NCBI GenBank assembly: GCA_003598085.1
Contig: QZKU01000085.1
Span: 1 to 38,453 of the forward strand
Reading direction: 5' to 3'
DNA length: 38,453 bases
From: Candidatus Abyssobacteria bacterium SURF_5
Lineage (GTDB): Bacteria; Abyssobacteria; SURF-5
Positions 281 to 35,745 of this stretch are shown here, one piece after another (position 1 is the stretch's first letter; each line of letters opens with the position of its first letter). Position numbers and translations under genes: made by a program. The notes beneath the pieces were generated by a model, which saw nothing but the letters and a program-made list of their open reading frames with translations, had not been told where the DNA came from and did not search any database.

Positions 281-3200
281 TTATCGGCAGGCGGCGAACC
301 GGACGCTAGAGCGCGAGTCGCGGATGATCTGCCCAAGCACGTGCAGCATGTATTTCACATCTTCTTCATTATTACCGCTTCCGAGAGAAAGGCGCAGAGC
401 GCAGTGGGCGTCCTCCACACTGAGCCCCATCGCCAGAAGCGTGAGCGACGGCTCGGGGTTTCCGGATTTGCAGGCCGAGCCGGACGAGCAATAGACGCCG
501 CGGCGGCTGAGGAACATCACGAGGGACTCGCCGCGCATTGCCGGCAGCGTCACGTTCAGCGTGTTTGGCAGGCGCAGCGACGGATGCCCGTTCAGCTTCA
601 TATCGGGCACAAGCTCGCGAAGCCCTTTCTCGAGCGCATCCCTCAGCGCCTGCACCCGCTCCATATCCCGCTCATTCAGTTTTCGCTGCGCAAGCTCACA
701 CGCCTTTCCGAATCCCACAATTCCCGCAACGTTTTCGGTGCCCGCCCGCAGTTTCTGTTCCTGGCCCCCCCCATCAATCAAAGGAACCAGCGGAATGCCT
801 TTCCTGACGTACAGCATTCCCATGCCTTTAGGCCCATGTATTTTATGGCTGGAAAGAGACAGCAGGTCCACTCCGAGCTTTTCGACATCCACCTCGATCT
901 TGCCGGCCCCCTGTACGGCGTCGCAATGGAAAAGCGCGTCTCGCTCATGAGCGATCCGCGCGAGCTGCGCAATCGGCTGGATCGTGCCGACCTCGTTGTT
1001 GGCAAGCATGATGCTCACGAGGGTCGTCTGCGGGCGGATGGAGTCCTCTAACTGTCGCGGGTCCACCAGTCCGTCTTGGTCGACGTCGAGATACGTCACC
1101 TCGAATCCCATCGCCTCGAGCGAACGGCAGGAATTGAGCACGGCCGGATGTTCGATTTTCGTAGTGACAATATGATCCCCTTCTTCGCGCCGGGCGAACG
1201 CGACTCCTTTGACAGCGAGATTGTCAGCTTCGGAGCCGCCTCCGGTGAAGACAACGCGCCGGGCGGTACAGTTGATAAGCTGAGCGACCTTCCGGCGTGC
1301 GCCCTCCACCGCGTCGCGCGCCTCAACGCCGCGCTGATGGATGCTTGAAGGATTCCCGAATGACTCGCGCAGATACGGCATCATCGCTTCGACTACTTCC
1401 GGGTCCATTGGAGTGGTGGCATTATGGTCGAGATAGACATGGCGTAATTTAGGCGGTCTGTGCCGCTCTCGGCTTTTCGTTTTCGCGGGGACGGATTCCG
1501 TTATTCTATCGGCGGATTTGGCGACCCCGGCTTTCACGACCTCCGCCAGCAGCGACTTATACACCGGGAATCCCGAAATGGGATCGTAGCGCGTCAGATC
1601 GGTCAATTCGTTCACATTACATTCCTGCCAGCTTCTCGATCCGAGCGGGCCGCCGCCGCCCATGCAGGCGTCGATCGCGCCCGGCATGATGTCGTCGGTT
1701 ACAATCGCCCTGAACTTCACTTGCCCGCGCTTGGTCGTTACGTTGACCCAGTCGCCATTCTCGATGCCTCGCTCGCTTGCATCAACGGCATTCATGGTCA
1801 CAATCGGGTCGGGTGTCATTTCTCTGAGGCCGGACACGCCGTGGTGCTGGCTGCGGAAATCGGAGAACACGCGTGCGCCAGAGTTGAAGACAAGCGGATA
1901 GTCGGCTGCAAGCTGCGGATTTGCGAGGGGTCCCTCGCCCGGCTCGACATACACAGGGAGCGCATCGTATCCGTGCTCCGCCAGGATTGACGACGCAATT
2001 TCGAACTTTCCGCTCGGCGTGTTGAAGCCGGGTTTCCCGTCGGGCCGCAGCAGGCCTTTCATCCATTTCTTATACTGCATCATGACCGCCGGCAGGCGCA
2101 CCTCTCCGCCGACCGCCTTCACCTCTTCGAGCGTATAGCCGCTCCCCTGCAGAACGTGCCGGAGCAATTCTTCCTCGGTTTGCGGGTAGAGGTGGCCGTA
2201 GCCGAGCCGCTTCGCCAGTTCCGCCAGTATCAGGAAATCGTTTCGCGCCTCGCCCACCGGCTCGACAATCCTTTCCCGGATTATAAAGAGCGGGCCGTAG
2301 ACCATGTACGACATGATCTCGTACATGGTCGTTGCCGGCAGAACGATATCCGCGTAGGCGGCATCGGCGGTGAAATAGCGGTCAATGCACACGAGGAAAT
2401 CGAGCGCGTTCAGCGTCTTGCGCCATAAATCCGGCTGCGGCCATGCGGTAATGATTGACGCGCCAAGAATGATCAGCGAACGAATTTTATATGGCCTGCC
2501 TTCCAGAACCGACTCCGGCAGGGCGATGGCGTGAGATTCGCCGCGGTACATGCTGTAGACGGGAAAGCGGTCTCGTCCAAGCGCTTTCCTCACGTCCGGG
2601 TTCGCGATGAGACCGCTCCTGTTAATGGGGAAAATGTTTTCTTTCATCCGGAAGACAAGGCCGCCCGGCACATCGAGCTGGCCTGCAAGGGCCCACAGCG
2701 TATGCACCGCGCGTATCGCCTGCACCCCGCTGTCGGAGTATTCGAGGCCGGTATACATGACCGGACACGCGCCGCGGGCGCGTGCGATTCTGCGCGAGAG
2801 AGAACGCACCTTTTCTGCGGGAACTTCGGTTATCTGCTCGACCGTTTCCGGTCGGAAATGCTGGACGTACTGCTTGAGCTCGTTGAACCCAAGGGTCCAG
2901 TTCTCCGCGAAATCCTCATCGTACAGTTCCTCTTCAACGAGGACGTTGATCATTCCGAGCGCCAGCGCGCCGTCGGTTCCCGGCCGAAGCGGAATCCATT
3001 CGGACTCGGCCTCCCTCGCTGTCTCGCTTCGGCGAGGATCGATCACCACAACTTCTGCTCCGCGCTCGCGCGCGCGAAGAATTTGAGCATGCGCCAGCGG
3101 AGGCGAGTCGGTCGCCGGATTGGCGCCCCACACCACGATCAACTCCGCCTGCTCGATCTCGGTATCCATGGTGATCAGCATCTCGCCCATGGTCACATGC

Positions 3201-3712
3201 GGCGCGATCATCGCGAAAGAGACATAACAGAGTGCGCCGACACCGAGCGTATTCGGCGATCCGAACGGGAACAACACGCTCGAAGCCGATGAGACGGCTA
3301 CGCCTCTCGGCTGATACACATCGCACATCGACAACTCGAAGCTGCCACGACCGGTGTATATCGCCGTCGCCTCCGGCCCGTGTTCTCGCTTGATGTCATC
3401 CAGCTTCCCGGCTATTGCTTCCATCGCCTCGTTCCAGGTAATTCGCTCGAAATCATACGATCCTTTCGGACCTGTGCGCCGAAGTGGGTACTGGAGGCGA
3501 TTCGGATCGTGAACGATTTGCGGAGAATGCTTGCCGATGGTGCAGATCATGCCGAGCGGATGGTCCGGCAGCGCTTTGACGCCGGACATGCGGCCGCCGT
3601 TCAGGCGAACGCGCACCCAGCAGCCGGCCGGGCAGATACCGCAGAGGCCGTCCTTGATCTGTTCCGCCGGTGAATCTTGCTGAGGAGCAAGTTGTGTCGA
3701 AATTTCAGTCAT
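281..3712 (-). CDS. Molybdopterin oxidoreductase-cysteine desulfurase fusion, candidate anaerobic ergothioneine synthase
   Basis: A 1143-residue protein with two complete enzyme modules. Residues about 20-735 are a bis-MGD molybdoenzyme of the thiosulfate/polysulfide reductase type. Cys24, Cys27, Cys31 and Cys57 give the N-terminal [4Fe-4S] pattern (CxxCxxxC...C). Cys162, in a GSPN(x7)C context, is at the position of the protein ligand to Mo/W. After a linker rich in Lys and Arg, residues about 760-1140 are a NifS/IscS cysteine desulfurase with YLDHNATTP at its start, the PLP lysine Lys957 in SSHKIHGPKG and the persulfide-forming Cys1081 in SSGSACKSG. No active-site residue appears lost. I chose ATG 3712 because it has a purine-rich GGAAAAGG site; the longer frame begins with TTG. 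The ATG lies 8 nt inside the end of egtD, so the two are probably translationally coupled. Inference: the desulfurase domain supplies sulfur in cis, and the Mo domain inserts it at C2 of hercynine. Self-sulfuration of Moco for an unrelated substrate is the alternative. Domain calls are firm; the substrate is inferred. Confidence 0.9.
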   Translation of the reverse strand: MTEISTQLAPQQDSPAEQIKDGLCGICPAGCWVRVRLNGGRMSGVKALPDHPLGMICTIGKHSPQIVHDPNRLQYPLRRTGPKGSYDFERITWNEAMEAIAGKLDDIKREHGPEATAIYTGRGSFELSMCDVYQPRGVAVSSASSVLFPFGSPNTLGVGALCYVSFAMIAPHVTMGEMLITMDTEIEQAELIVVWGANPATDSPPLAHAQILRARERGAEVVVIDPRRSETAREAESEWIPLRPGTDGALALGMINVLVEEELYDEDFAENWTLGFNELKQYVQHFRPETVEQITEVPAEKVRSLSRRIARARGACPVMYTGLEYSDSGVQAIRAVHTLWALAGQLDVPGGLVFRMKENIFPINRSGLIANPDVRKALGRDRFPVYSMYRGESHAIALPESVLEGRPYKIRSLIILGASIITAWPQPDLWRKTLNALDFLVCIDRYFTADAAYADIVLPATTMYEIMSYMVYGPLFIIRERIVEPVGEARNDFLILAELAKRLGYGHLYPQTEEELLRHVLQGSGYTLEEVKAVGGEVRLPAVMMQYKKWMKGLLRPDGKPGFNTPSGKFEIASSILAEHGYDALPVYVEPGEGPLANPQLAADYPLVFNSGARVFSDFRSQHHGVSGLREMTPDPIVTMNAVDASERGIENGDWVNVTTKRGQVKFRAIVTDDIMPGAIDACMGGGGPLGSRSWQECNVNELTDLTRYDPISGFPVYKSLLAEVVKAGVAKSADRITESVPAKTKSRERHRPPKLRHVYLDHNATTPMDPEVVEAMMPYLRESFGNPSSIHQRGVEARDAVEGARRKVAQLINCTARRVVFTGGGSEADNLAVKGVAFARREEGDHIVTTKIEHPAVLNSCRSLEAMGFEVTYLDVDQDGLVDPRQLEDSIRPQTTLVSIMLANNEVGTIQPIAQLARIAHERDALFHCDAVQGAGKIEVDVEKLGVDLLSLSSHKIHGPKGMGMLYVRKGIPLVPLIDGGGQEQKLRAGTENVAGIVGFGKACELAQRKLNERDMERVQALRDALEKGLRELVPDMKLNGHPSLRLPNTLNVTLPAMRGESLVMFLSRRGVYCSSGSACKSGNPEPSLTLLAMGLSVEDAHCALRLSLGSGNNEEDVKYMLHVLGQIIRDSRSSVRFAACR

Positions 3713-4751
3713 TCGCGACCTTTTCCAGAAGCAACAGCGCAAACCAGGAATTCTCATCGGAGAAGATACGTCTTGTTGCAAAGCCGCAGGAATACAAGCG
3801 CGGGACGAGCTCGTTCAGGTTGAATTTGCGACTGATTTCCACCTGGATACGTTCGCCGGCAGAGATGGGAATAGATTTGTTCAAAGGCTTTATCCGGACG
3901 CGCTGCTCCCGGTTGAACTGGGCGAAAATCTCGATTCGGCTCTTCGCGGATGAGAAGTACGCCACATGCTGCAGGTGGAGGACATCGATCCCCGTCTTTA
4001 ATTCGCGGTTCATCCGCTCGAACAGGTTCAAGGTGAAGGCGGCGCTTACGCCGGCCCTGTCGTTGTAAGCGGCCTCAAGTATAGAGGTATCCTTCACGAG
4101 GTCTACGCCCAGAAGGAAGAAATCTCCCTCGGAAAGATGCCGGCCGATATTGCGCCAGAATAGCCGGTCCTGGTCCTCGTTCAAGTTGCCGATCGTGCTG
4201 CCAAGAAAAAGCACCATGACGGGCGACAATGCTTTCAGAAACGGAAAAGCGCATTCGTAGGTGCCCCGAATGCCTGCGACTTTGACGGCAGGATGCCAGG
4301 CGGTGATGGCGGCGCAGGCATGCTGAAGCGCCGAGCGGCTCACGTCCACAGGAACATACCGGACTGACCCATTCGATTTGACATAGGCGGAAAGGATATG
4401 GCGGGTCTTTATTGCACTGCCGCAGCCTAACTCAGCCAGAGTGACACAGCCGGTAGTTTCACAGATTTCACCCGCATATCTGTGCAGAATCGCGGTCTCT
4501 CTGCGGGTCGGATAATATTCCGGCTGGCGGCAAATCTGCTCGAAAAGAGCGCTGCCCCGGGCATCATAGAGGAAGCGGCATTCCATCCATTTGGGATTTT
4601 CACTCAGCGTTCTTGCGGCGGAGTGGGCAAAGTCCAGAACCGGGTTTGCCTCCTCTGCGGCGTCAATGATGGCGCTGTCGCCGCCGTTCAATGCGATAGC
4701 GACGCACGCGGGCAATTCGTTAATCTTTGATGGGTCAGCTTGAGATCGCAT
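3705..4751 (-). CDS. egtD: EgtD, L-histidine Nalpha-methyltransferase
   Basis: SAM-dependent enzyme that trimethylates the alpha-amino group of histidine to hercynine, the first step of ergothioneine synthesis. Family hallmarks are present in order (numbering from ATG 4751): YDARGSALFE at 62-71, PEYYPTRRE, the SAM loop ELGCGSAIKTR near 107-117, LFLGSTIGNL with Asn189, LGVDLVKD, AAYND, and EISRKF with Glu305 and Ser307, the residues that in studied EgtD proteins hold the histidine side chain. Length from this ATG is 348 residues against about 320 in the family. The open frame runs up to a TTG at 4868. ATG 4751 follows GGAGGAG, but with only 2-3 nt spacing, so the start is not certain. Its 3' end overlaps the start of the fusion gene. 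EgtB, EgtC and EgtE are absent nearby, which points to a non-canonical sulfur step. Confidence 0.93.
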   Translation of the reverse strand: MRSQADPSKINELPACVAIALNGGDSAIIDAAEEANPVLDFAHSAARTLSENPKWMECRFLYDARGSALFEQICRQPEYYPTRRETAILHRYAGEICETTGCVTLAELGCGSAIKTRHILSAYVKSNGSVRYVPVDVSRSALQHACAAITAWHPAVKVAGIRGTYECAFPFLKALSPVMVLFLGSTIGNLNEDQDRLFWRNIGRHLSEGDFFLLGVDLVKDTSILEAAYNDRAGVSAAFTLNLFERMNRELKTGIDVLHLQHVAYFSSAKSRIEIFAQFNREQRVRIKPLNKSIPISAGERIQVEISRKFNLNELVPRLYSCGFATRRIFSDENSWFALLLLEKVAND

Positions 4752-4950: not shown

Positions 4951-5934
4951 TCACAGGTTATCAATAATTCGTTCAAGAAGAAATTGCTGGAAACGGTCCG
5001 GGTCGACCCATACGGCCACATGTGCGTTCGGCCGGCCAGCCTCTCCCCGAAAAAACGGCCGCAGATCGGTTACGCTCATGCCGGACGTCAGGGTTCCGTC
5101 CGTCTCGATATCGACATGCACGAATTTGGTGCCAACAGACGACCTGTCGATCGCGACCATGACCGCGAGCGCGTCATGCAGCGGGCAACCGTGATAGCCT
5201 TCCCGCTCGCGGTATACGTTCATCACGCGCTCGGTCGAATCCTGCAGGAAACGATTGAGGCGCGTCCTCTTCTTAGCGGCCTGGAGCAGCCGATGCCTGC
5301 TGAGGCGCGCGTTGCGGGTGACATCGAGCCCCACAAGGACAACAGGAATTCCCGACTGGATCACCTGTCTCGCGGCCTCGGGATCGCAATAGAAATTGAA
5401 TTCGGCGGCGGGAGTTACATTTCCTGGAACCGAATATGCGCCGCCCATCGTAATGATTTCCCTGATATTGTGCGAGAGACGGGGATCGAGCTCGAGAGCG
5501 AGTGCGACGTTTGTCAGCGGCCCGAGGGTGATCAGTGTTATCTCGCCTGCGTACCTGGCCGCGACCTCGCATATCAGCTCGGGCGCGTACATTTTGCGGG
5601 GCTTTATATGCGGCGGCGGATATCTGTGTTTTCCACTCCTATCCTTCAGGAATGAAATCTCCCCCAATCCATCACGCCCGTGGATGGACTCGCTGGAAAA
5701 CGGCGCTCTCTTAAGCGGCTTATCGGCGCCGGGAACAACGGGCGGACTATCCGGGAGTCCCAGGATCTCCACGATTCGCAGCGCGTTCTGTGTGCATCTC
5801 TTCAGGCTGACGTTGCCGTTGACAACGGTGATGGCTTCCACCCGCAGTTCGGGTGACCTCAGCGCCAGCACGAGCGCAAGCGCGTCGTCCACCCCCGGAT
5901 CAGTATCAATGATTACCGGCTTTGGGTTTGTCAT
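4951..5934 (-). CDS. Inosine-uridine-preferring nucleoside hydrolase family protein
   Basis: Predicted N-ribohydrolase that splits the glycosidic bond of ribonucleosides. The N-terminus carries the calcium- and ribose-binding signature DTDPGVDDA, with Asp10, Asp12, Asp16 and Asp17, and the C-terminal third has the HDA motif (GCPLHDALAV) that gives the last metal-binding aspartate. Length is 327 residues from ATG 5934, normal for the family; an in-frame ATG at 5964 would add ten residues. No signal peptide or membrane segment is seen, so it should be cytoplasmic. It lies 199 bp upstream of egtD on the same strand with no obvious terminator between, so co-transcription is possible, but no functional link to thiohistidine synthesis is evident. 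Base specificity cannot be read from the sequence. Confidence 0.9.
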   Translation of the reverse strand: MTNPKPVIIDTDPGVDDALALVLALRSPELRVEAITVVNGNVSLKRCTQNALRIVEILGLPDSPPVVPGADKPLKRAPFSSESIHGRDGLGEISFLKDRSGKHRYPPPHIKPRKMYAPELICEVAARYAGEITLITLGPLTNVALALELDPRLSHNIREIITMGGAYSVPGNVTPAAEFNFYCDPEAARQVIQSGIPVVLVGLDVTRNARLSRHRLLQAAKKRTRLNRFLQDSTERVMNVYREREGYHGCPLHDALAVMVAIDRSSVGTKFVHVDIETDGTLTSGMSVTDLRPFFRGEAGRPNAHVAVWVDPDRFQQFLLERIIDNL

Positions 5935-6109
5935 ATGTAGTTTCCGCAGACCAAGTCCTGGCATTCACGAGTCGGTGAGACGATTCTACCACCTGTCAAT
6001 TCGGGCGTCAAACGAAAGTGCGCCTGCAATCGCATCATCCGGCGTAGAGGAGAAGCCGCCGGCGTCCGAAAATGCGCGATCAAAGACGAAAATCCCGGCA
6101 TGGGAATGC

Positions 6110-21743: not shown

Positions 21744-23759
21744 TCAGAATAACAATTTCAATCCCGCATGCGCTGATACGCCCGCGGTGCCGTAATTGCT
21801 CACCTCGTGATAATCCCTGTCGAAGAGATTCTCGATGCGTCCGAAAACCCTGACGTTCTCGCTGATGTCGTAGGAGGCCGCCAAATTCACCAAGGTATAT
21901 CCCCCCAAATCTTCATTGCCGACATCGAGCCTGTCGCCGACATAGATGATGCCGAGGTTGACGATTCCTTTTTCCAGGAATCGATATGTTGTGTCCAGCC
22001 CGGCCTTGTTCTCCGGCCTGCGAAGAAGGTCTTCTCCGGTGCTCTTGTCCTCGGTTTCGGTGCGCGTGTAGTTGGCGCGGACCAGCAGTTTCTCGCATGG
22101 CTGAACCGCTGCGAACACTTCAACGCCCTCGGCTTCAGCCTCATCGATATTAACGTAGCCGGACCCGAAAAGGAAATCGATGAGGTCGTCAAACTCGTTC
22201 CGGAAATATGTCGCCCCGAACGTGATTCGCCCGTCCAGCACCTCCTGCTCGAAACCGGCGTCCCATCCCTCGCTTGTTTCCGGGTCCAGATTGGGATTGC
22301 CAACCGGTCCGAAGAAGGGGTCGGCGGCGCCAAAAAGCTGGTAAAGCGTGGGCGCCTTGAAGCCGGTTCCGTATGTCGCCTTGAGCTTGGTTCCAAACTC
22401 CGGAATGAGGTAAGCCGAGGCTATACGATAGGTGACTTCCGATCCGAACTCCTCGTGGTCATCGAGGCGAATCCCCAGCGTTGTGAAGAAGCGGTCCCAC
22501 AGCTTGATCTGATCCTGAAGGAAATAGCCGGTGGTCCGGACCGATTTCTCGTCGAAAACATCTTCCATGATAAAGCCCCCGGAATCAAAAAAGGTATGAA
22601 ACTTAAGCGATTCCTCCTCGGTCTCCACCCCCACGGTCAGGGTGTTCGTGTCATGGAGAGCGAGGTTGTGCTGCCAATCGAATTTCAGGAGATCTCCGTC
22701 ATACGAGGAGCGCGAACGGTCCACCGGATGTGCGGAATCAAAATCATCCCGCAGCCTTCTTCTATAGTCGGTAAAGGAGACCCCCAGGGTCTGCTCCCAA
22801 AAGCTGTCGAAGAAAAATGTCCTCGCTTGCGCCCTCAAGAAAAGCGCCTCCGTATCTTCGGTGGAATTCGGATCGTCCGCAAAGCGAAAGGTGACGGGAT
22901 CAAATCCGTCAAGCTCGACCTCGGTGTCATAATAGCGCAGGATGAAGTCAAGACCCAGAATATTGGCGGGCGTCCATCCCACCCTCGTTGAAACCGACGT
23001 GTTCTCATACGCGTCCTCTTCACCATTCCCGTCGTCCTCGTCCGCGGCCGAAATGCCGTCGGTGTCGAGACGCGAGATTCCGAGCGAATAGTTCACCAGA
23101 TCAGTTCCCCCGCTGACGCCGGCTGTCTCGTGGAACGTCTCGTATGAGCCGTATTCGCCCGATACATAGAAGCGGGGCTTTCCGCTCCCCTTCTTCGTGA
23201 TGATGTTGATCACGCCGCCGATGGCATCCGAACCATAGAGCGTGCTCTGGGGGCCGCGGAGCACCTCGATGCGCTCGATGTTTTCGGTGGTCAGATCGGC
23301 AAAATTGAAAGCGCGAACCGGCGAACTGGGATCATTCATTTCGATGCCGTCTATCAGTACGAGCGTATGATCGGATTTCGCTCCCCTGATAAAGGCCGAT
23401 GCTTGCCCGCCGGGCCCTCCCGTCTGCACGATGTCCAGCCCCGGCTCGCCACGCAGAACATCGAGCACCACGATCTTTTGCTCGCGCACGATCTCCTCTT
23501 CGGAAATTACAGTTATGGAGGCCGCGACCTCTCGGATCGGGGTCTCCATGCGGGTGGCGGTTACCACCACGGGCTCGAGGGTCTCCGGTTCCTGCCGCGA
23601 AGGCAACTCTGCCTGGTCTTCGGAGGGCTCCACCGGCTCCGTCTCGCTGATGGTGGTCCATTGACTTTCGCCGGAGGATTTGTCTGCCGGCTCGGCGAAA
23701 AGTGACGAACTCGTGAATACGATTGTTGCAAGGAACAGAAACGTGATGACTGCGCGCAT
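21744..23759 (-). CDS. btuB: TonB-dependent outer-membrane receptor, probable cobalamin transporter
   Basis: A 671-residue protein. A signal peptide (MRAVITFLFLATIVFTSSSLFA) is followed by an acidic Pro/Glu-rich stretch, a TonB box (LEPVVVTATR) and a plug domain (VLDVLRGEPGLDIVQTGGPGGQASAFIRGAKSDHTLVLIDGIEMND ... IERIEVLRGPQSTLYGSDAIGGVINIITKKG). A 22-strand barrel follows, with the C-terminal IENLFDRDYHEVSNYGTAG pattern and a terminal Phe. The sequence is BtuB/vitamin-receptor-like. The cobalamin riboswitch directly before its ATG makes B12 or another corrinoid the likely substrate. BtuF, BtuC and BtuD are not in the window. Confidence 0.92.
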   Translation of the reverse strand: MRAVITFLFLATIVFTSSSLFAEPADKSSGESQWTTISETEPVEPSEDQAELPSRQEPETLEPVVVTATRMETPIREVAASITVISEEEIVREQKIVVLDVLRGEPGLDIVQTGGPGGQASAFIRGAKSDHTLVLIDGIEMNDPSSPVRAFNFADLTTENIERIEVLRGPQSTLYGSDAIGGVINIITKKGSGKPRFYVSGEYGSYETFHETAGVSGGTDLVNYSLGISRLDTDGISAADEDDGNGEEDAYENTSVSTRVGWTPANILGLDFILRYYDTEVELDGFDPVTFRFADDPNSTEDTEALFLRAQARTFFFDSFWEQTLGVSFTDYRRRLRDDFDSAHPVDRSRSSYDGDLLKFDWQHNLALHDTNTLTVGVETEEESLKFHTFFDSGGFIMEDVFDEKSVRTTGYFLQDQIKLWDRFFTTLGIRLDDHEEFGSEVTYRIASAYLIPEFGTKLKATYGTGFKAPTLYQLFGAADPFFGPVGNPNLDPETSEGWDAGFEQEVLDGRITFGATYFRNEFDDLIDFLFGSGYVNIDEAEAEGVEVFAAVQPCEKLLVRANYTRTETEDKSTGEDLLRRPENKAGLDTTYRFLEKGIVNLGIIYVGDRLDVGNEDLGGYTLVNLAASYDISENVRVFGRIENLFDRDYHEVSNYGTAGVSAHAGLKLLF

Positions 23760-23768
23760 GCCTGTACT

Positions 23769-23784
23769 CCTTTCCCCGGAAAGG
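23769..23784 (-). promoter_or_regulatory. Ribosome-site-sequestering hairpin of the btuB riboswitch
   Basis: A perfect 7-bp inverted repeat, CCTTTCC / GGAAAGG, whose 3' arm on the minus strand contains most of the AAAGGAG ribosome site of the receptor. It lies directly after the aptamer, with no U-run, so the expression platform is probably translational. Confidence 0.7.
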
Positions 23785-23947
23785 GTGACCCCCTGCGAGC
23801 GGTAAGGTTTCCTGACTTACGGCGTCGCCTACTCTCCGCGCCTTCCCATTCCGATGTTCTTTATACGAACAGTGGCCTTATGCGGATTTTGTGCCGATTA
23901 CAGTTGCCGGGCAGAAGCGGAATCTCACCGCTTTCCCTACATCCGCT
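23785..23947 (-). promoter_or_regulatory. Cobalamin riboswitch upstream of btuB
   Basis: Read on the minus strand, the conserved elements occur in the right order: GGGAA, GGTGaGATTCC, GCCCGGCAACTGT, GCCACTG, GGGAAGGC, AGTAGG and the B12 box AAGTCAGGAAACC. Exact ends are approximate. The aptamer starts about 25 nt after the cobS stop codon, so its promoter must lie inside cobS or transcripts must arrive from the cobUTS promoter. Confidence 0.95.
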
Positions 23948-23971
23948 CGCGCTTCGTTGAACAGCCTTCTC

Positions 23972-24715
23972 CTATCCACTACCGAAACCGATGCCTGCCG
24001 CAATTACAAGAGAAACCGTCTCGACTACCTCACACGTGGCCCCGAGCGTGTCGCCGGTTATCCCGCCGATCTTGCGCAACATGAGGAGTGAAAGCGGCGC
24101 AAGCGCCACCAAGGAGGCCAAGCCGACTAAAACACCGTTCATTCCCCATGCCAGCCAACCGATGATCAGCAGCGCGGCGCCCGACCAGATCATCTGGCGA
24201 GTCGCTCGCGCCGGGCGCACTGCAGCGGCCAACCCCTCGTTCCGCGCAAGCGGCATGTATCCCATGAGGACGGCCATTCCACACCGGCCGGCTACAGGCA
24301 TCAGCAACAGCGCCTGTGTTCGCGTTTGGGGCGCTAATGAAGAGGCGGCGGCGATTTTGAGTGCAAGGACGCATGCCACCGCAATCACCCCCATCGCTCC
24401 GGTGCGGCTGTCGCGCATGATGCGCAAAATTTCCTCGCGCGGGCGCGAGCTGCCGAAGCCGTCCGCGGTGTCGGCCAAGCCGTCAAGATGCAGACCGCCG
24501 GTAATAAACACGAGCAGAACGATGACGCTCGCACCCGTGACGAACGGCGGAAACACAACCGAAAGAGCCGCCCCGGCTGTTGCGAGAACGAGTCCCGCCA
24601 GAATACCGACAAGCGGGAAAAACTCCAGCCGGACGTTCAACCGCTCATCCGCCTGGACGCGGCGCAGCGGAATCGTTGTCAGGAACTGGAGCGTGTCGAG
24701 CAGTGATTTCATCAT
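23972..24715 (-). CDS. cobS: CobS, adenosylcobinamide-GDP ribazoletransferase
   Basis: A 247-residue polytopic inner-membrane enzyme that joins alpha-ribazole (phosphate) to adenosylcobinamide-GDP, the last assembly step of the nucleotide loop. Signatures: LQFLTTIPL at the start, EFFPLVG, GGLHLDGLADTADGFGSSRP (metal-binding Asp residues), RIMRDSRTGAMGV and GGITGDTLGATCE near the end. Two adjacent ATGs (24715 and 24712) begin the frame; neither has a strong ribosome site. It is the third gene of cobU-cobT-cobS and is followed at once by the second cobalamin riboswitch. Confidence 0.95.
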   Translation of the reverse strand: MMKSLLDTLQFLTTIPLRRVQADERLNVRLEFFPLVGILAGLVLATAGAALSVVFPPFVTGASVIVLLVFITGGLHLDGLADTADGFGSSRPREEILRIMRDSRTGAMGVIAVACVLALKIAAASSLAPQTRTQALLLMPVAGRCGMAVLMGYMPLARNEGLAAAVRPARATRQMIWSGAALLIIGWLAWGMNGVLVGLASLVALAPLSLLMLRKIGGITGDTLGATCEVVETVSLVIAAGIGFGSG

Positions 24716-24769
24716 CGTTGCACGAGAAGAACAGATGTCACGGTTGAGAAGTTTAGGGTAAAAATAGCA

Positions 24770-25834
24770 TTACCCCCCCGAATCTCCGATGCCGACTTCT
24801 TCGAAGGTGGCCACGTCCGAGAGGAGGCGCGCGGAGGCCTCGATCAGCGGCATCGCAAGCGCAGCGCCGGTGCCCTCTCCGAGCCTCAACCGCAGGTCGA
24901 GAAGCGGCCGTTTCTTCAAACGCGTGTGCATCAATCGGTGCCCGCATTCGACGCTTCGATGGCCGGCGATCATGTACTGCGCGCTGAGTGGCTCGAGAGC
25001 GTGCGCGACGAGCGCGCCGGCGGTCGCGGGAAATCCATCCAGCACAATGGGCTTTTTCAATGCGGCCGCTCCGAGAACGAATCCCGCGATCGCGCCGATC
25101 TCGAACCCGCCGACCTTCGAAAGGACGTCGAGAGCATCGTTCGGGTCGGGCTGATTCACCTGGAGAGCGCGCTCAATCATATTTATTTTATGCGCGTGGC
25201 GGTCGCCGTCGATTCCGGAACCGCGGCCGGTTACCATAGCGGCCGGGCGTCCACTGAATGCGGCCAGTACTGCGCTCGCGGCGGTGGTGTTGCCGATCCC
25301 CATCTCCCCGGCAGCAAGAAGGTCCGGCGCGGGATTCAGATCGTGAGCGACCTCGATGCCGGCCTCAATGCATTGCACGGCCTGCGCGCGCGACATGGCC
25401 GCGCCATGAAGCATGTTCCGGGTTCCGGCCGCGACGGGTTTGGACACGATCTTTTCTTCGCGCGCGAGAGAGGACAGATCGCCTGCGACGCCGACATCCA
25501 CGACAATCACATCCGCTTGGGCCGCTCGAGCAACCGCGTTGATACCTGCCTTGCCCCCCACAAATACCTGCACCATACTGCAGGTTACTTCTTTCGGATA
25601 TTGGCTGACGCCCGACTCGGAGATTCCGTGGTCGGCCGCGAAAACCGCCACGGCCCGCCGTTTGACCGGCGGGCGAAGCGAGCGCGTTATTCCGGCCAGA
25701 TCGATGGCCAGATCCATCAGTCGGCCGAGCGCCCAGCGCGGCATGACGAGACGGTTGAGTCGCCGGCGCGCCTGCCTGCGGTATTCCGAATCCTGCGGCA
25801 TGATTTCCGCGAGAGTTGTCTCAATCAGGGTCAT
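24770..25834 (-). CDS. cobT: CobT, nicotinate-nucleotide:dimethylbenzimidazole phosphoribosyltransferase
   Basis: A 354-residue cytoplasmic enzyme that activates the lower-ligand base to its alpha-ribotide. Signatures: AVFAADHGISESGVSQYP, the glycine-rich AAGEMGIGNTTAASAVL, FEIGAIAGFVLGAA, GFPATAGALVA and the catalytic glutamate in RLGEGTGAALAMPLIEA near residue 320. Its ATG has a very strong AGGAGG site and overlaps the end of cobU by 14 nt, so they are translationally coupled. The base used, dimethylbenzimidazole or another, cannot be read from sequence; no bluB or bza genes are present here. Confidence 0.95.
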   Translation of the reverse strand: MTLIETTLAEIMPQDSEYRRQARRRLNRLVMPRWALGRLMDLAIDLAGITRSLRPPVKRRAVAVFAADHGISESGVSQYPKEVTCSMVQVFVGGKAGINAVARAAQADVIVVDVGVAGDLSSLAREEKIVSKPVAAGTRNMLHGAAMSRAQAVQCIEAGIEVAHDLNPAPDLLAAGEMGIGNTTAASAVLAAFSGRPAAMVTGRGSGIDGDRHAHKINMIERALQVNQPDPNDALDVLSKVGGFEIGAIAGFVLGAAALKKPIVLDGFPATAGALVAHALEPLSAQYMIAGHRSVECGHRLMHTRLKKRPLLDLRLRLGEGTGAALAMPLIEASARLLSDVATFEEVGIGDSGG

Positions 25835-26381
25835 TCGCGCCTCCTTTCAAATGAAGCGGTATCCCGCAACTAACAAGGATCACTTCATCGGCGGAGGCGG
25901 CAAGCGACTGATTGCATCTGCCCGCGAGATCCCGAAAGCGTCTGGATGCTGGATTGTCTGGAACTATGCCCATGCCGACTTCGTTCGCAACGAAAAAGAT
26001 GTATCCGCTCATTTTGGCGCATACCTCGACGATGTCCCTGCACCGGGAGGAGATATCTTTTTCCGTGATCTTCTCGCCTCGCGCGTCCGCCTCCCGCATC
26101 AGGTTGTTCAGCCACAGCGTGAGACAATCCACGAGGGCGACGTTGTACTTGTTCGCACCGCTCCGAAGCGCACAAATGATGTCGCCGTACTCTTCAACGG
26201 TTTCCCAGCCGCATTCGGCGCGAGCGCGATGATGGGCGGCAATGCGCGCACGCATCTCCTCGTCAAGCGGGGGACAGGTGGCCAAAAACATCCGCGGGCC
26301 GGGCAGCGATTCAGCCCGGGCGCGTGCATATTCGCTCTTTCCGCTTCGACTACCGCCAACGATCAGGATGATTTTTGCCAA
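25821..26381 (-). CDS. cobU: CobU, adenosylcobinamide kinase/guanylyltransferase
   Basis: A 186-residue bifunctional enzyme that phosphorylates adenosylcobinamide and then forms the GDP derivative. It has the P-loop GGSRSGKSEYA at residues 8-18, the internal histidine region (ARIAAHHRAR) used for guanylylation, VALVDCLTLWLNNLM, and FVANEVGMGIVPDNPASRRFRD toward the end. The start codon is TTG at 26381, supported by GAGG 7 nt upstream; no ATG is available in frame at the N-terminus. It is the first gene of cobU-cobT-cobS, behind a 600-nt leader carrying a riboswitch, a terminator and an inverted-repeat element. Confidence 0.95.
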   Translation of the reverse strand: MAKIILIVGGSRSGKSEYARARAESLPGPRMFLATCPPLDEEMRARIAAHHRARAECGWETVEEYGDIICALRSGANKYNVALVDCLTLWLNNLMREADARGEKITEKDISSRCRDIVEVCAKMSGYIFFVANEVGMGIVPDNPASRRFRDLAGRCNQSLAASADEVILVSCGIPLHLKGGANDPD

Positions 26382-26407
26382 TTTGGGACCTCAATTGCCG
26401 AATAATA

Positions 26408-26637
26408 GGGACAGAGCCTAATTTTTTGTCATAAACCATTTGATATTAGCTACTTATAAGCGCGTCCCCAGGATTAATCTCCCTATAGTTTCTGTAGCTC
26501 CTGCCGGATCGCATCCCATGTGAAGAAGATGTTGCTTTTTGGTTGATAAAAACACTAATGATCAAACGACCTCAAATTACCGCCCATGTAAATACTTGCT
26601 GAACAATGATTTACAAAAAATAAATAGGCTCTGTCCC
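26408..26637. repeat. MITE-like element in the cobU leader
   Basis: A 230-bp AT-rich segment bounded by perfect 13-bp inverted repeats, GGGACAGAGCCTA (26408-26420) and TAGGCTCTGTCCC (26625-26637), with A/T-runs just inside. The ends resemble those of IS200/REP-transposase-associated elements found in many anaerobe genomes. No transposase is encoded. It lies between the riboswitch terminator and cobU, so it becomes part of the mRNA leader. Confidence 0.65.
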
Positions 26638-26722
26638 CATTTTTGGAGGTTGCCGGCAACGTTCCCTCAAAAGGAGAGGATGAAAAGGAAGTTGCCGGAC
26701 AACGATTCCTCCAAAATAAAAA

Positions 26723-26750
26723 ATCCCCAAACCCTGGTGGATTTGGGGAT
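26723..26750 (-). terminator. Leader terminator of the cobUTS cobalamin riboswitch
   Basis: A perfect 9-bp stem (ATCCCCAAA / TTTGGGGAT) with a 10-nt loop. On the minus strand it is followed by TTTTTTATTTT. It lies about 60 nt after the B12 aptamer and about 340 nt before cobU, which fits a transcription-attenuating expression platform. A small second hairpin (GACTC/GAGTC, near 26775-26794) lies between aptamer and terminator. Confidence 0.85.
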
Positions 26751-26805
26751 GCCGTTTTCCATCCCTCGGTGCACAGACTCCATTACCCGAGAGTCACAAC
26801 ACTCC

Positions 26806-26975
26806 TCATGCAGCGGGTAGGTCTTCTGGCTTGCGGGCTTTCTACTCGCCGCGCCTTCCCGGCCCTGTGGGCCAGTGGCTGTAGCGGCTTTCGCTCCCGT
26901 TTACAGCGGCGGGACCGCGACGGATTCTCACCGTCTTCCCTGGTGTTTCCCCTGAGGAAACGCCCACTGATGTTT
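26806..26975 (-). promoter_or_regulatory. Cobalamin riboswitch upstream of cobUTS
   Basis: Minus-strand order of conserved elements: GGGAAgacGGTGagAATCC, GGTCCCGCCGCTGT, GCCACTG, GGGAAGGC, AGTAG and the B12 box GCAAGCCAGAAGACC. Ends are approximate. The promoter at 26987-27015 would start transcription immediately before the aptamer. Confidence 0.96.
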
Positions 26976-26986
26976 TATTAGGCCAG

Positions 26987-30631: not shown

Positions 30632-31759
30632 TTATTCTTTCAGGCCGCTCAGCATTTCCAGGAAGGCCTGGATCCTGGTGCTGATCTGGCCTGAGCCGCT
30701 CGTGCTGTACTCGCGCTCGAGATCGAGCAGCGGCACACCGTCCCGGTGAAATTCGTCTGAGAGCATTTTGCGTTCGCCGGCCCAATGATCGCAGAATTTG
30801 AGGCGCGCGCAGACGACTGCGCGCACGCGCCACTCCTGTATGATCTTCCGGTAAACTCCGCAATTGTTGTCGAACCCGTTGAAAATGGAAGGGCAGGCGA
30901 CTCGCTTCGTGTGTCGTTTGGCGATCGCGCGAATGGGATCAGCGGCGTTCTCCTCGATCTGACCTTCGTAATGACGCATGCCGAAACAAAGGCCGTCAGC
31001 CACAACAATGGCCGATTTGCGTTCGATGAAATCGATGAAGTCGGGCAAGTCGCAAGCGCCGCCGACAACCATCAGGCGCGGTTTTCCATTTGCTTCGATC
31101 GTCCTTTTTTCCAGTTGCGGGATCAGCGCTTCGAGCTTTTCGTTGAACAGCTCGCGCGGGAGCGACATGCCCGCCACCGCCAGTTGCAGGTATTCGGCGC
31201 CGGTGAGCGGGGGCGGATCGTTCTTTCTCAAGTCGTTCACGCGCCGCATCAAAGAGCGCGTCCTGTTATATACGGCGATCGAGCGCCTGATGTCTTCCTC
31301 TGAAATCTTCTTATCGAATGCGCGCTCGAGCGTTTCGAGCAGTTGGCGCATCTCCTGGACGAGCCATTCTTCCGCGGCCTGTCCGAGCGCATGATACATT
31401 GAGAAATAATGGACGAAATCGACCCGCGCCTTCTCCTGCAGTTCACCGGCCAGGCGCAGCATGTGGTCGCACGTGTTGGTGGTCACCAGTCCGTCGAGAA
31501 ACTCGAGTTGCCCGGTAAGAGCCAATTGCAGAACCGAGCGGGTATAGGAGCAATTAATTCGGTGCAACTGCGCGTCCGCGTTCGAGGTGTCCTGCAGGTT
31601 CGGAGCGCGCAGGCGGAGCGGCAATGCTCCCGCCGCATGAAGGATTTCCTCCGGGATATTCGAGCAAACCGTTCCGACAACGGGATTGCCCGCCTGCTTC
31701 CACTTCTGAATCTCGGGATTGTTGAGTGTCCGGGCGATTTCTGAAAAATAAGCGATCAT
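30632..31759 (-). CDS. 2-hydroxyacyl-CoA dehydratase / benzoyl-CoA reductase-type subunit (D component, small)
   Basis: A 375-residue subunit of the HgdB/FldC/BcrB family, which carries part of a [4Fe-4S] active site for radical dehydration of 2-hydroxyacyl-CoA or ATP-driven ring reduction. Typical blocks: VVGTVCSNIPEEILHAAGALPLRL, DGLVTTNTCDHMLRL and, near the C-terminus, VVCARLKFCDHWAGERKML followed by GVPLLDLEREYSTSGSGQISTRIQAFLEML. Cysteines at the three cluster positions are kept. It starts 10 bp after the stop of its partner at 31770-33062. The ATP-dependent activator (HgdC/BadFG-like) is not in the window, so activation must come from elsewhere. Confidence 0.9.
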   Translation of the reverse strand: MIAYFSEIARTLNNPEIQKWKQAGNPVVGTVCSNIPEEILHAAGALPLRLRAPNLQDTSNADAQLHRINCSYTRSVLQLALTGQLEFLDGLVTTNTCDHMLRLAGELQEKARVDFVHYFSMYHALGQAAEEWLVQEMRQLLETLERAFDKKISEEDIRRSIAVYNRTRSLMRRVNDLRKNDPPPLTGAEYLQLAVAGMSLPRELFNEKLEALIPQLEKRTIEANGKPRLMVVGGACDLPDFIDFIERKSAIVVADGLCFGMRHYEGQIEENAADPIRAIAKRHTKRVACPSIFNGFDNNCGVYRKIIQEWRVRAVVCARLKFCDHWAGERKMLSDEFHRDGVPLLDLEREYSTSGSGQISTRIQAFLEMLSGLKE

Positions 31760-31769
31760 GAATGCCCCC

Positions 31770-33062
31770 TTATTGCATCACCGTCGTGAAGAACTCCTCG
31801 ATCTGCGTTCTGAGCAGCTCGATCGGCAGAACGCGGTCGTCGTTATAATCGAGCTCGATGAACAGAGCGGGAATATCCCGTTTTCGGCAGACTTCGCGAA
31901 TGAGCCCGCGCGCGCCGCAGATGCTGTTGCAGCCGACGTGCTGGGTGATGATCATGCAGTCGCAATGATAATGATCGTAAGCGCGGAGCGAGAACTGGAT
32001 CAGCTTCTGGGTGTCGAATCGCATGAGGGACATGGTCATATCCAACCCTTGCCAGGCGATTCCCTCGAGCATACTTTCGAGGGTGCCGGTATCGATCGGA
32101 TCGAGAATAGCCGTACTCGAGAGCGAGTTGGAGACCATCATCGCGCCGAACTGCTGTTCCATCCAGTTAAAAAGCTCATTGTCGTATGTCGGCGGCACGT
32201 GCACCCATAGGACCCGATGCCTTTCTTCAAAGGGGCCGGCGGTCCTTCCGTCTTTTACGCGCTGGACTGCATCGTCTCTGAGCAGTTTGAGGGTTTTGGT
32301 GAGGCGGGGATGCCCGGCTCCGAAAATGAAACAGCCGTATGGGAGCAGCCTCAGCAATCCCGGATGAGGCGCCGGCCTGACGGTGAAGGTATCGTGGATA
32401 TCGAGCAAATACTCATAAGCCTTATTCGATTCGACCACGGCTTCCCGAAGCCGGTCGATATCGAATTTTCGGCCGGTGACCTTTTCCAGGAACGGGATCA
32501 ATTGCTCCTTGAGCTGGCGGGCATAATATCGGATTGACTCGCGGTCGTACCGGAACGGTGCGTCCAGAAACAACATCGGGCAATCGAGCAGCTTGTGGAG
32601 AATCGGGTACGCGATGCGTGTGCCGTCGCACGGCGAAGAAGAGGTGACGAAAAAGGAATTTTTGGGGAGTTCGCCCTTCAGGGCTGCGCCAAGGATGAAC
32701 CGATCGGTCGAGCAGACGTCGGACGGGATACCGGCCTCCTCGGCCGCCTCGATGAACTCGTACACGATATTCATGTTCACCCTGGTGAAGAATGAGGGAT
32801 AAAATTCGAGGCACAGCGGCGCACAGCCGAAGGAATAGAAAAGTTGCGGAACAAGCCCGAACTCGAACAGCGCCACCTTTCGATTTTCATCGTTCATCGC
32901 GGCGGCGATATCCTCATATTGATCCGCGTTGTTGGAAATAGTCGCCGCATAAAGGTGGGCATACTCCTCGTACGGAGGAAGCGGGTTGTCCATCCAAAAC
33001 TGCGCCATAGGCCTCATCAGCCCTTCCACGATTTCGATCGTCTTGCGAAATGGCTCTCCCAT
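31770..33062 (-). CDS. 2-hydroxyacyl-CoA dehydratase / benzoyl-CoA reductase-type subunit (larger)
   Basis: A 430-residue partner subunit of the same superfamily: FGLVPQLFYSFGCAPLCLEFYPSFF at about 75-100, FFVTSSSPCDGTRIAYPILHKL in the middle and, near the end, IITQHVGCNSICGARGLIREVCRKRDIPALFIELDYND. These supply the expected cluster cysteines. The frame is open upstream to 33389, but the first 109 residues are low-complexity and unlike the family. ATG 33062 has GGAG 10 nt upstream and fits a promoter at 33156-33185. It forms a heterodimer with the next gene's product. Whether the reaction is dehydration or aromatic reduction cannot be decided here. Confidence 0.9.
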   Translation of the reverse strand: MGEPFRKTIEIVEGLMRPMAQFWMDNPLPPYEEYAHLYAATISNNADQYEDIAAAMNDENRKVALFEFGLVPQLFYSFGCAPLCLEFYPSFFTRVNMNIVYEFIEAAEEAGIPSDVCSTDRFILGAALKGELPKNSFFVTSSSPCDGTRIAYPILHKLLDCPMLFLDAPFRYDRESIRYYARQLKEQLIPFLEKVTGRKFDIDRLREAVVESNKAYEYLLDIHDTFTVRPAPHPGLLRLLPYGCFIFGAGHPRLTKTLKLLRDDAVQRVKDGRTAGPFEERHRVLWVHVPPTYDNELFNWMEQQFGAMMVSNSLSSTAILDPIDTGTLESMLEGIAWQGLDMTMSLMRFDTQKLIQFSLRAYDHYHCDCMIITQHVGCNSICGARGLIREVCRKRDIPALFIELDYNDDRVLPIELLRTQIEEFFTTVMQ

Positions 33063-33155
33063 AGGCGTCGCGCTCCTCGAATCGGCCTGAGAACATGTCT
33101 GTAGTCGGTTTGAAAACGGTAAAACAGACTCTCTTGGACGGTATCTGTTTCCCGC

Positions 33156-33185
33156 AGTATATGTTATCTTTGGCTGTCTTGTCCA
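33156..33185 (-). promoter_or_regulatory. Sigma-70-type promoter of the dehydratase-amidohydrolase unit
   Basis: On the minus strand TGGACA (plus 33180-33185), an 18-bp spacer and TATACT (plus 33156-33161). Predicted start near 33149, about 87 nt before ATG 33062. It lies in the 247-bp divergent gap before the DUF255 gene. Confidence 0.5.
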
Positions 33186-33309
33186 ATAGAGAAGTGAGCC
33201 GTTGAGGGTTTTAAGCCGAACCAAAGACTGGCTTTGCCACATCCTCAATACGGGTAAATACTTATATGGAGATGAATTCCATACAACAATCATAGAAAGG
33301 GAATATGAT

Positions 33310-35745
33310 ATGACGGTAAAACAGGAAAAAATGATGCCATCGGCGGAGGAAATCGCAAAGTTGCCTCCCGATGGCGGGCCGGAATTCAATCGACTGATTC
33401 ACGAGAAGAGTCCATATTTGCTTCAGCACGCTCGTAATCCGGTCGATTGGTATCCCTGGTCCGAAGAAGCATTTGAGAAGGCGCGGAAAGAAGACAAACC
33501 CATTTTTCTTTCGATTGGGTACTCAACCTGTCACTGGTGTCACGTCATGGAGTGGGATTCGTTCGAGGATACGGAAGTTGCAGATATTTTGAACCGATAC
33601 TACGTCTGCATAAAAGTTGATCGGGAAGAGCGTCCGGATATCGATGAAGTTTATATGAACGCCACCCAACTGATCACGAATCGGGGCGGATGGCCGAATT
33701 CGGTTTGGCTGTTACCGAACAGAAAACCGTGGTACGCTGGAACATTTTTTCCGCGCGAGGATGTGCAGGGTCGGCCCGGCTTCAAAACGATTCTGCTCAG
33801 TCTGGCCGAATTCTGGCAGCGGCGCCGGCAGGATGTCAACAGGCAGGCCGATCAACTGGCCGACGTGATGGAACGGATCATGCAGGCAAAGAATATCGAG
33901 CCGATAGGAGAGCCGTCGCGCGAGATGGTGACTCAGGCGGTCCGCGAGTTGCGAGATGCATTCGATCAAGAGCACGGCGGCTTTGGAGATGCGCCCAAGT
34001 TCCCGCCGCACACGGGGCTGGACCTGCTTTTTTACGAATATCGCCGCACGGAGGATGATTATCTGCTGCACATGATAACCCGCACGCTCGACGGGATGGC
34101 GCAAGGCGGAATTCATGACCATTTGGGCGGCGGGTTTCACAGATATTCCACCGATGCGGAATGGCTGCTGCCACATTTCGAAAAGATGCTGTATGATAAC
34201 GCGCTGCTCGCGCGCGCATATGTCATGGGGTTTGCCGCAACCGGCAATCATGATTACCGAGAGGTCGCGGCAAAGATTTTCGACTGGATCTCACATGAGA
34301 TGACTGATAAGGGCGGCGGGTTTTATAGTGCACTCGATGCCGACAGCGAAGGAGTGGAAGGCAGATCTTATGTTTGGACTCATGAAGAAGTGATATCCGC
34401 TTTGGGCGAGCGTGAAGGAGAATTATTCTGCCGCGTATTTAATGTCAAACCTGAAGGCAATTTTCATGAGGAGGCCACCGGCAAGAAAAAGGACTTGAAT
34501 GTTCTGTTCCGCTCGAAGACATACTCGCAGTTGGCGGAGGAGGAGGGCATTCCCGAAGACGAATTTCGCCAGCGCATGGAGGATTGCCGCCGCAGGCTCC
34601 TTCAGATACGCAATATGCGGGTTCGCCCGCACCTGGACGACAAGGTGCTGAGCGGGTGGAACGGATTGATGATTGGGGCATTGGCCCATGCAGGCGGAGT
34701 ACTGGGCGAATCCGGCTATACAAGAGCGGCTGATCGCGCGGCAAAATTTGTGTTGAAAAACATGCGAAAAGACGGGCGGCTCCTGAGAAGTTCCCGCGAG
34801 GGTGAAGCAAGAATTGAAGCGTATCTTGATGATTATGCTTTCTTGATCGATGGAATTCTCGATCTCTATGAAGCGACCAAGACGAAGAGCTGGTTGAATG
34901 AAGCCGTTCGATTGACTGAGGCGCTCCTCGATCTGTTCCATGACGAAGTCGATGGGGGATTCTACTTTACTTCAAAAGATCACGAGCAAATCCTGACCCG
35001 GTTGCGGGACCCGCTCGATAAGGCGCTTCCTTCGGGAAACGGCGTGGCCGCGCGTGTGCTCGTCCGTCTTGCGCGCCTGACCGGCGAACATCGATACCTC
35101 AGTTCCGCCAGAAGCTGTTTCGAGGGATTTCAGCCGATTATGGGCCGTGCTCCGCGCAGTACCGAATCGCTGCTGCTGGCGCTGGGAATGTATCTCGATA
35201 CTGTCTCACCCGGCGGCATCGCAGTAAAAGAGCAGGAGCAGCCCGATGTTTCCGTTCGGAAGAAACCGGTGAAAGCGGACGTTTTCGTGTCGAAGACGGC
35301 GGCCGCTCCCGGCGAAACGGTAACGATTGCGGCGAAGCTGACCATAGATAAAGGATGGCATATCAATTCGAATCGGCCGCTGCAGGATTATTTGATACCG
35401 ACTTCGCTGGAACTGCATGATTCCCCCGCTGTCTCACTCGGGAGGGTGCAGTATCCCATTGGGACAAAAGTCGCTCTGGGGGTTGACCAGGAACCTGTAT
35501 CCGTCTATGAACAGACGGCATGGATTGTAGTTCCTGTGAAGGTGGCGAGAAACGCCGAGTCGGGGCTGCGACAATTGGAATTGATGCTCCAGATGCAGCC
35601 GTGCAGCAAGGAAAAGTGCCTGGCTCCCGAGAAACTCAAGCTGTCCGTTCCGCTCGAGGTTAATCCGGCGGGCGGGAAAGGAAGGCATCAGGCCATTTTC
35701 GATATAATCGGGACTATGCCGAAAAAAGCGAGCGCGAAAAAGTGA
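33310..35745 (+). CDS. DUF255 (YyaL/SSP411-type) thioredoxin-domain protein with C-terminal DsbD-alpha-like domain
   Basis: An 811-residue protein. Residues about 22-180 are the DUF255 thioredoxin-fold domain, with [22 protein letters not shown] and the redox motif [16 protein letters not shown] (Cys74 and Cys77). Residues about 190-670 form an alpha/alpha barrel-like region ([62 protein letters not shown]). Family members usually end there. Here a further 130 residues resemble the N-terminal domain of DsbD ([34 protein letters not shown] ... [17 protein letters not shown]) and hold a Cys-x4-Cys pair. No signal peptide is visible on the ATG 33310 form, chosen for its AAAGGG site over the TTG at 33202. 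The role is unknown; a redox or sugar-nucleotide activity has been proposed for the family. Confidence 0.9.

Follow-up and report, generated by a model that had tools for sequence, protein, structure and literature searches.

Can a gene for a histidine methyltransferase and an overlapping gene for a molybdoenzyme fused to a cysteine desulfurase together provide the antioxidant ergothioneine without oxygen? This question is raised by a locus of Candidatus Abyssobacteria bacterium SURF_5 on contig QZKU01000085.1 of assembly GCA_003598085.1; the window, i.e. the whole stretch of DNA that was analyzed, comprises its positions 1 to 38,453. Our analysis indicates that the two genes very probably make up an oxygen-independent route to ergothioneine, of the type of the metallopterin-dependent ergothioneine synthase (MES), an enzyme for oxygen-free ergothioneine synthesis described by Beliaeva and Seebeck (JACS Au 2022, PMC9516567). 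We base this assignment on the domain architecture, the gene pairing and the functional residues, all of which are as in the published MES enzymes, and furthermore on the co-occurrence with EgtD, the lack of a candidate for EgtB or EanB and the activity of an MES (AbMES) from the same lineage. The locus contains the following features:

3705..4751, minus strand: EgtD, L-histidine N-alpha-methyltransferase of 348 amino acids with the product trimethylhistidine (hercynine), assigned by TIGR03438, PF10017 and structure 4uy7
281..3712, minus strand: putative MES, a fusion of 1143 amino acids in a single open frame with PF00384, PF01568 and PF00266, in which the functional residues of the Caldithrix abyssi enzyme (CaMES) are kept
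1480..3712, minus strand: N-terminal module of the fusion (residues 1 to ~744) for a molybdenum or tungsten bis-molybdopterin guanine dinucleotide (bis-MGD) center, with a [4Fe-4S] site; best solved relative 2e7z
284..1444, minus strand: C-terminal cysteine desulfurase of the NifS/IscS type (residues ~757-1143), assigned by TIGR03402, with its residues kept in the homologues
3705..3712, minus strand: 8-base overlap ATGACTGA between the MES start and the EgtD stop, read directly from the sequence

The upstream frame starts with an ATG at 4751 and ends with the stop codon TGA at 3707-3705. Its product passed the curated cut-off of the EgtD family TIGR03438 (307.6 bits versus 290.9), matched PF10017 with an E value of 5e-95 and was the only protein of the whole genome to match this family. 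The best solved relative was the EgtD structure 4uy7 (E 1e-55), which aligned over residues 48-341 and hence over nearly the whole length. Compared to this structure the motifs for the binding of S-adenosylmethionine (SAM) and histidine are kept, namely the SAM motif ELGCGSAIKTR, GSTIGNL, AYND and the E-x-S motif EISRKF. The fusion frame begins with the ATG at 3712-3710 and runs uninterrupted to its stop at 281. Since the two genes overlap in ATGACTGA, EgtD and MES are probably translationally coupled.

The fusion protein showed strong matches to the molybdopterin oxidoreductase (PF00384), molybdopterin-dinucleotide-binding (PF01568) and NifS/IscS-type class-V aminotransferase (PF00266) families within one frame, and NifS (TIGR03402) was matched with 505 bits across residues 759-1135. 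The N-terminal module belongs to the dimethyl sulfoxide reductase family and has acetylene hydratase (2e7z, E 1e-71) as its closest solved relative, with Cys162 aligned to the metal-ligand cysteine of that enzyme. This ligand and the cysteines of the [4Fe-4S] cluster (Cys24, Cys27, Cys31 and Cys57) were present in 81-82 of the 82 aligned proteins. The desulfurase half contains Lys957 for pyridoxal phosphate, the persulfide cysteine Cys1081, a conserved Cys1104 and the penultimate relay cysteine Cys1142. Among the 82 proteins the functional positions vary only in copies that are truncated, split, masked or devoid of the desulfurase and, for each of the last two cysteines, in two further cases.

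For CaMES a requirement for Cys153 (metal ligand), Lys952 (pyridoxal phosphate), Cys1074 (persulfide) and Cys1135 (relay) has been reported (PMC9516567). In the alignment Cys14, Cys17, Cys21, Cys48, Cys153, Lys952, Cys1074, Cys1097 and Cys1135 of CaMES correspond to Cys24, Cys27, Cys31, Cys57, Cys162, Lys957, Cys1081, Cys1104 and Cys1142 of the window protein. From the fourth Fe-S cysteine to the metal ligand the distance is 105 in CaMES as well as in the window protein, and 23 and 38 positions separate the last three cysteines in either protein. As judged from this alignment, all residues assigned or shown to be essential in CaMES are present in the window protein.

Other routes to ergothioneine were sought in the genome of the window (5,103,455 bases in 145 contigs, 98.5% complete). 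The sulfoxide synthase EgtB was absent from this genome, the best match reaching 117.8 bits at a cut-off of 360; the three matches below the cut-off are proteins with an FGE-sulfatase domain. Five rhodanese-family matches were detected, of which two lie in short frames and three belong to FAD-disulfide reductases that carry the rhodanese domain at their C-terminus; none of them is a tandem-rhodanese candidate for EanB, for which no direct sequence query was made. A preliminary description of this DNA had claimed an EgtD with intact SAM- and histidine-binding motifs overlapping the start of a single protein that joins a bis-MGD/[4Fe-4S] molybdoenzyme to a complete NifS/IscS domain, and the presence of neither EgtB nor EanB. 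Family cut-offs, structural alignment, the one-frame fusion and the genome searches confirm these statements.

By analogy the window protein would act as the published MES homologues do. Histidine would be trimethylated by EgtD with SAM. With L-cysteine as the sulfur donor, the desulfurase half would form a persulfide on Cys1081. The penultimate Cys1142 of the same polypeptide would then relay the sulfur to the molybdenum or tungsten bis-MGD center on Cys162. There a terminal metal-sulfido ligand would sulfurate the imidazole C2 of trimethylhistidine to ergothioneine without O2, a step which in the literature also has the status of a proposal (PMC9516567). For CaMES the sulfur transfer was found to be intramolecular, within one chain, and the sulfuration reversible (PMC9516567). 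The earlier proposal, according to which cysteine sulfur passes through the desulfurase to an oxygen-free C-H sulfuration at the molybdenum center, is thus supported by what was shown for MES homologues (PMC9516567).

The authors of the 2022 study looked for genomes with EgtD that lack EgtB or EanB and found a fusion of a molybdopterin enzyme with a cysteine desulfurase co-encoded with EgtD in 55 genomes. Four diverse homologues, from C. abyssi and three other sources, were produced in E. coli, and all four formed ergothioneine from trimethylhistidine; MES was described as the first case of C-S bond formation by a molybdenum enzyme (PMC9516567). A 2023 review (PMC10903977) places MES alongside EgtB and EanB, and our searches for newer MES literature turned up only the 2022 paper and the review citing it. 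Consequently, the gene pair of the window is a known MES system and the finding itself is not new. The preliminary description had mentioned, with uncertainty, a report of a molybdenum-dependent ergothioneine synthase. This mention was correct, and the novelty that it had left to be checked falls away with the publication of 2022 (PMC9516567). What was obtained here is an independent rediscovery, from raw sequence, of a real and unusual enzyme. Useful additions are its wider distribution, the genomes that have EgtB as well, and the members of the MES clade that lack the desulfurase.

In order to follow the distribution, ~85,000 genomes (one per species) were scanned with two conserved peptides of the molybdenum module. 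This yielded 183 relatives, compared to the 55 genomes of 2022, and widened the range of MES to include the cultured Geomonas, Pelotalea and Methanoculleus. Among the best 80, which were kept, the fusion lies in one frame at 76 loci across bacteria and archaea, and a chance or mis-assembled fusion was therefore ruled out; of the others, one is ended by its contig, one is split in two frames and two lack the desulfurase. The split copy (L070:6926-10392, plus strand) has molybdenum module and desulfurase in two overlapping frames, which reflects either an assembly frameshift or a natural split. Apart from the MES clade, one genome encodes stand-alone molybdenum modules (L011:1492-3705 and L012:1468-3795, both minus strand) with ~50% identity to the N-terminal half of MES; they retain the cysteine ligand and have neither a desulfurase nor an adjoining EgtD. 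The family to which the window's genome belongs has two further genomes in the collection, and the fusion was found in neither at the threshold used, in line with the window protein being AbMES.

The search for further genomes that pair EgtD with a Mo-NifS homologue, as suggested beforehand, was successful at 50 of the 80 loci, where EgtD lies within the fetched flank, before or after the fusion gene or divergent from it, even though many of the contigs stop a short way beyond. For 24 of the remaining 30 loci EgtD is encoded elsewhere in the genome. Fusions mostly without EgtD were thus not observed, EgtD being encoded in 74 of the 80 genomes. EgtD and EgtB were searched in 50 MES genomes, a choice which included all loci without a nearby EgtD and is therefore biased against an association. 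Nevertheless, EgtD was present in 44 of these 50 genomes; among 57 genomes that lack the fusion it was present in 8 (Fisher p = 2e-15). EgtD is also the only frequent neighbor; the next family, ABC-ATPase, occurs at 7 of the 80 loci.

EgtB scored above its curated cut-off in 7 of the 50 MES-clade genomes (L023, L032, L063, L064, L073, L075 and L078), for which mis-binning of metagenome contigs is possible. A complete MES fusion is present in six of them, and in five of the seven EgtB adjoins the single EgtD. Therefore, the routes are not strictly exclusive: the mutual exclusion with EgtB and EanB that the preliminary description had put forward for examination agrees with the absence of EgtB from the window genome and fails as a strict rule for EgtB. 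The view of 2022, in which MES serves strict anaerobes that have no other sulfuration enzyme, may have to be relaxed. Two proteins nested in the MES clade have no desulfurase domain and no remnant of it nearby. In L067 (Nitrospirota) the molybdenum module (449-2755, plus strand) is followed directly by an overlapping EgtD (2712-3749, plus strand), while in L075 (Deltaproteobacteria/Myxococcota; module at 320-2533, plus strand) EgtB and EgtD lie elsewhere in the genome. These modules would depend on another protein for their sulfur, and since a desulfurase in cis is needed according to the published work, L067 offers a natural test case. It may also be, although we consider this less likely than not, that MES extends beyond strict anaerobes, with some organisms keeping both the O2-dependent EgtB and the O2-independent MES, perhaps switched by oxygen, and a few MES-clade enzymes having lost the desulfurase and taking sulfur from another protein.

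Some observations weigh against the assignment of the window pair to the MES pathway. AbMES, which derives from a Candidatus Abyssubacteria bacterium and for which the SURF paper (PMC6121073) is cited, gave 0.4 μM ergothioneine in E. coli versus <20 nM in the control, the lowest yield of the four enzymes (PMC9516567). The window protein is probably this AbMES, an identity deduced in ways other than sequence comparison. Moreover, 6 of the 50 MES genomes, mostly metagenome assemblies, showed no EgtD above the family cut-off. The weak activity of AbMES would also fit a homologue with another main product, i.e. a different thio- or seleno-imidazole, or an enzyme for sulfur exchange with or breakdown of imported ergothioneine, whose substrate EgtD supplies or shares. 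The reversibility of the MES reaction in cells (PMC9516567) points in the same direction, as do the seven MES genomes with EgtB, in which MES might do something else. In contrast, the window protein keeps all published functional residues, its gene overlaps that of EgtD, and trimethylhistidine was turned into ergothioneine by four diverse MES enzymes (PMC9516567). We regard a different main product as very unlikely.

Still further from the evidence is a reading in which the molybdenum module is acetylene hydratase-like or a respiratory oxidoreductase, the desulfurase serves only cofactor maturation and EgtD is incidental. It draws on acetylene hydratase being the best solved relative of the module. 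The catalytic residue of that enzyme, which we take to be Asp13 next to the Fe-S cysteines, is replaced by Pro28 at the aligned position of the window protein, and EgtD alone recurs as a partner, whichever of the two genes comes first. Molybdenum cofactors of other systems are indeed sulfurated by desulfurases (discussed in PMC9516567), but an MES mutated in its desulfurase could still exchange sulfur between trimethylhistidine and ergothioneine (PMC9516567), and therefore the desulfurase is needed for each turnover and not for maturation. On account of Pro28 and the association with EgtD we rejected this reading as extremely improbable.

A nucleoside hydrolase gene (4951-5964, minus strand) precedes egtD in the same orientation at a distance of ~200 bases, and the two might share a transcript. 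The hydrolase gene does not recur beside MES, and no third conserved gene of the operon was found. Elsewhere in the window, at 21744-26981 (minus strand), a TonB-dependent receptor and a block of CobS/CobT-type genes lie near two cobalamin riboswitches (23784-23962 and 26799-26981), corresponding to ordinary cobamide uptake and synthesis. Two adjoining HGD-D family proteins of the 2-hydroxyglutaryl-CoA dehydratase D-component type are encoded at 30632-33389 (minus strand).

Among the known systems close to the window's MES-type pair, AbMES, with its shared Candidatus Abyssubacteria lineage, is probably the same protein. CaMES agrees in domain order, length (1136 versus 1143 amino acids), functional residues, the co-encoded EgtD and the lack of EgtB and EanB in the genome; it differs only in sequence, the third and fourth Fe-S cysteines of the window protein standing one residue closer together and the lengths deviating slightly at other places. 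Acetylene hydratase (2E7Z) shares with the N-terminal module of the window protein the fold family, the cysteine metal ligand and the [4Fe-4S] cysteines, whereas its catalytic Asp is Pro in the window protein, which in addition has the fused desulfurase and EgtD as a partner. The EanA/EanB pathway of green sulfur bacteria likewise employs an EgtD-type methyltransferase followed by an O2-independent sulfuration of trimethylhistidine, but no EanB was recognized among the rhodanese-family matches of the window genome.
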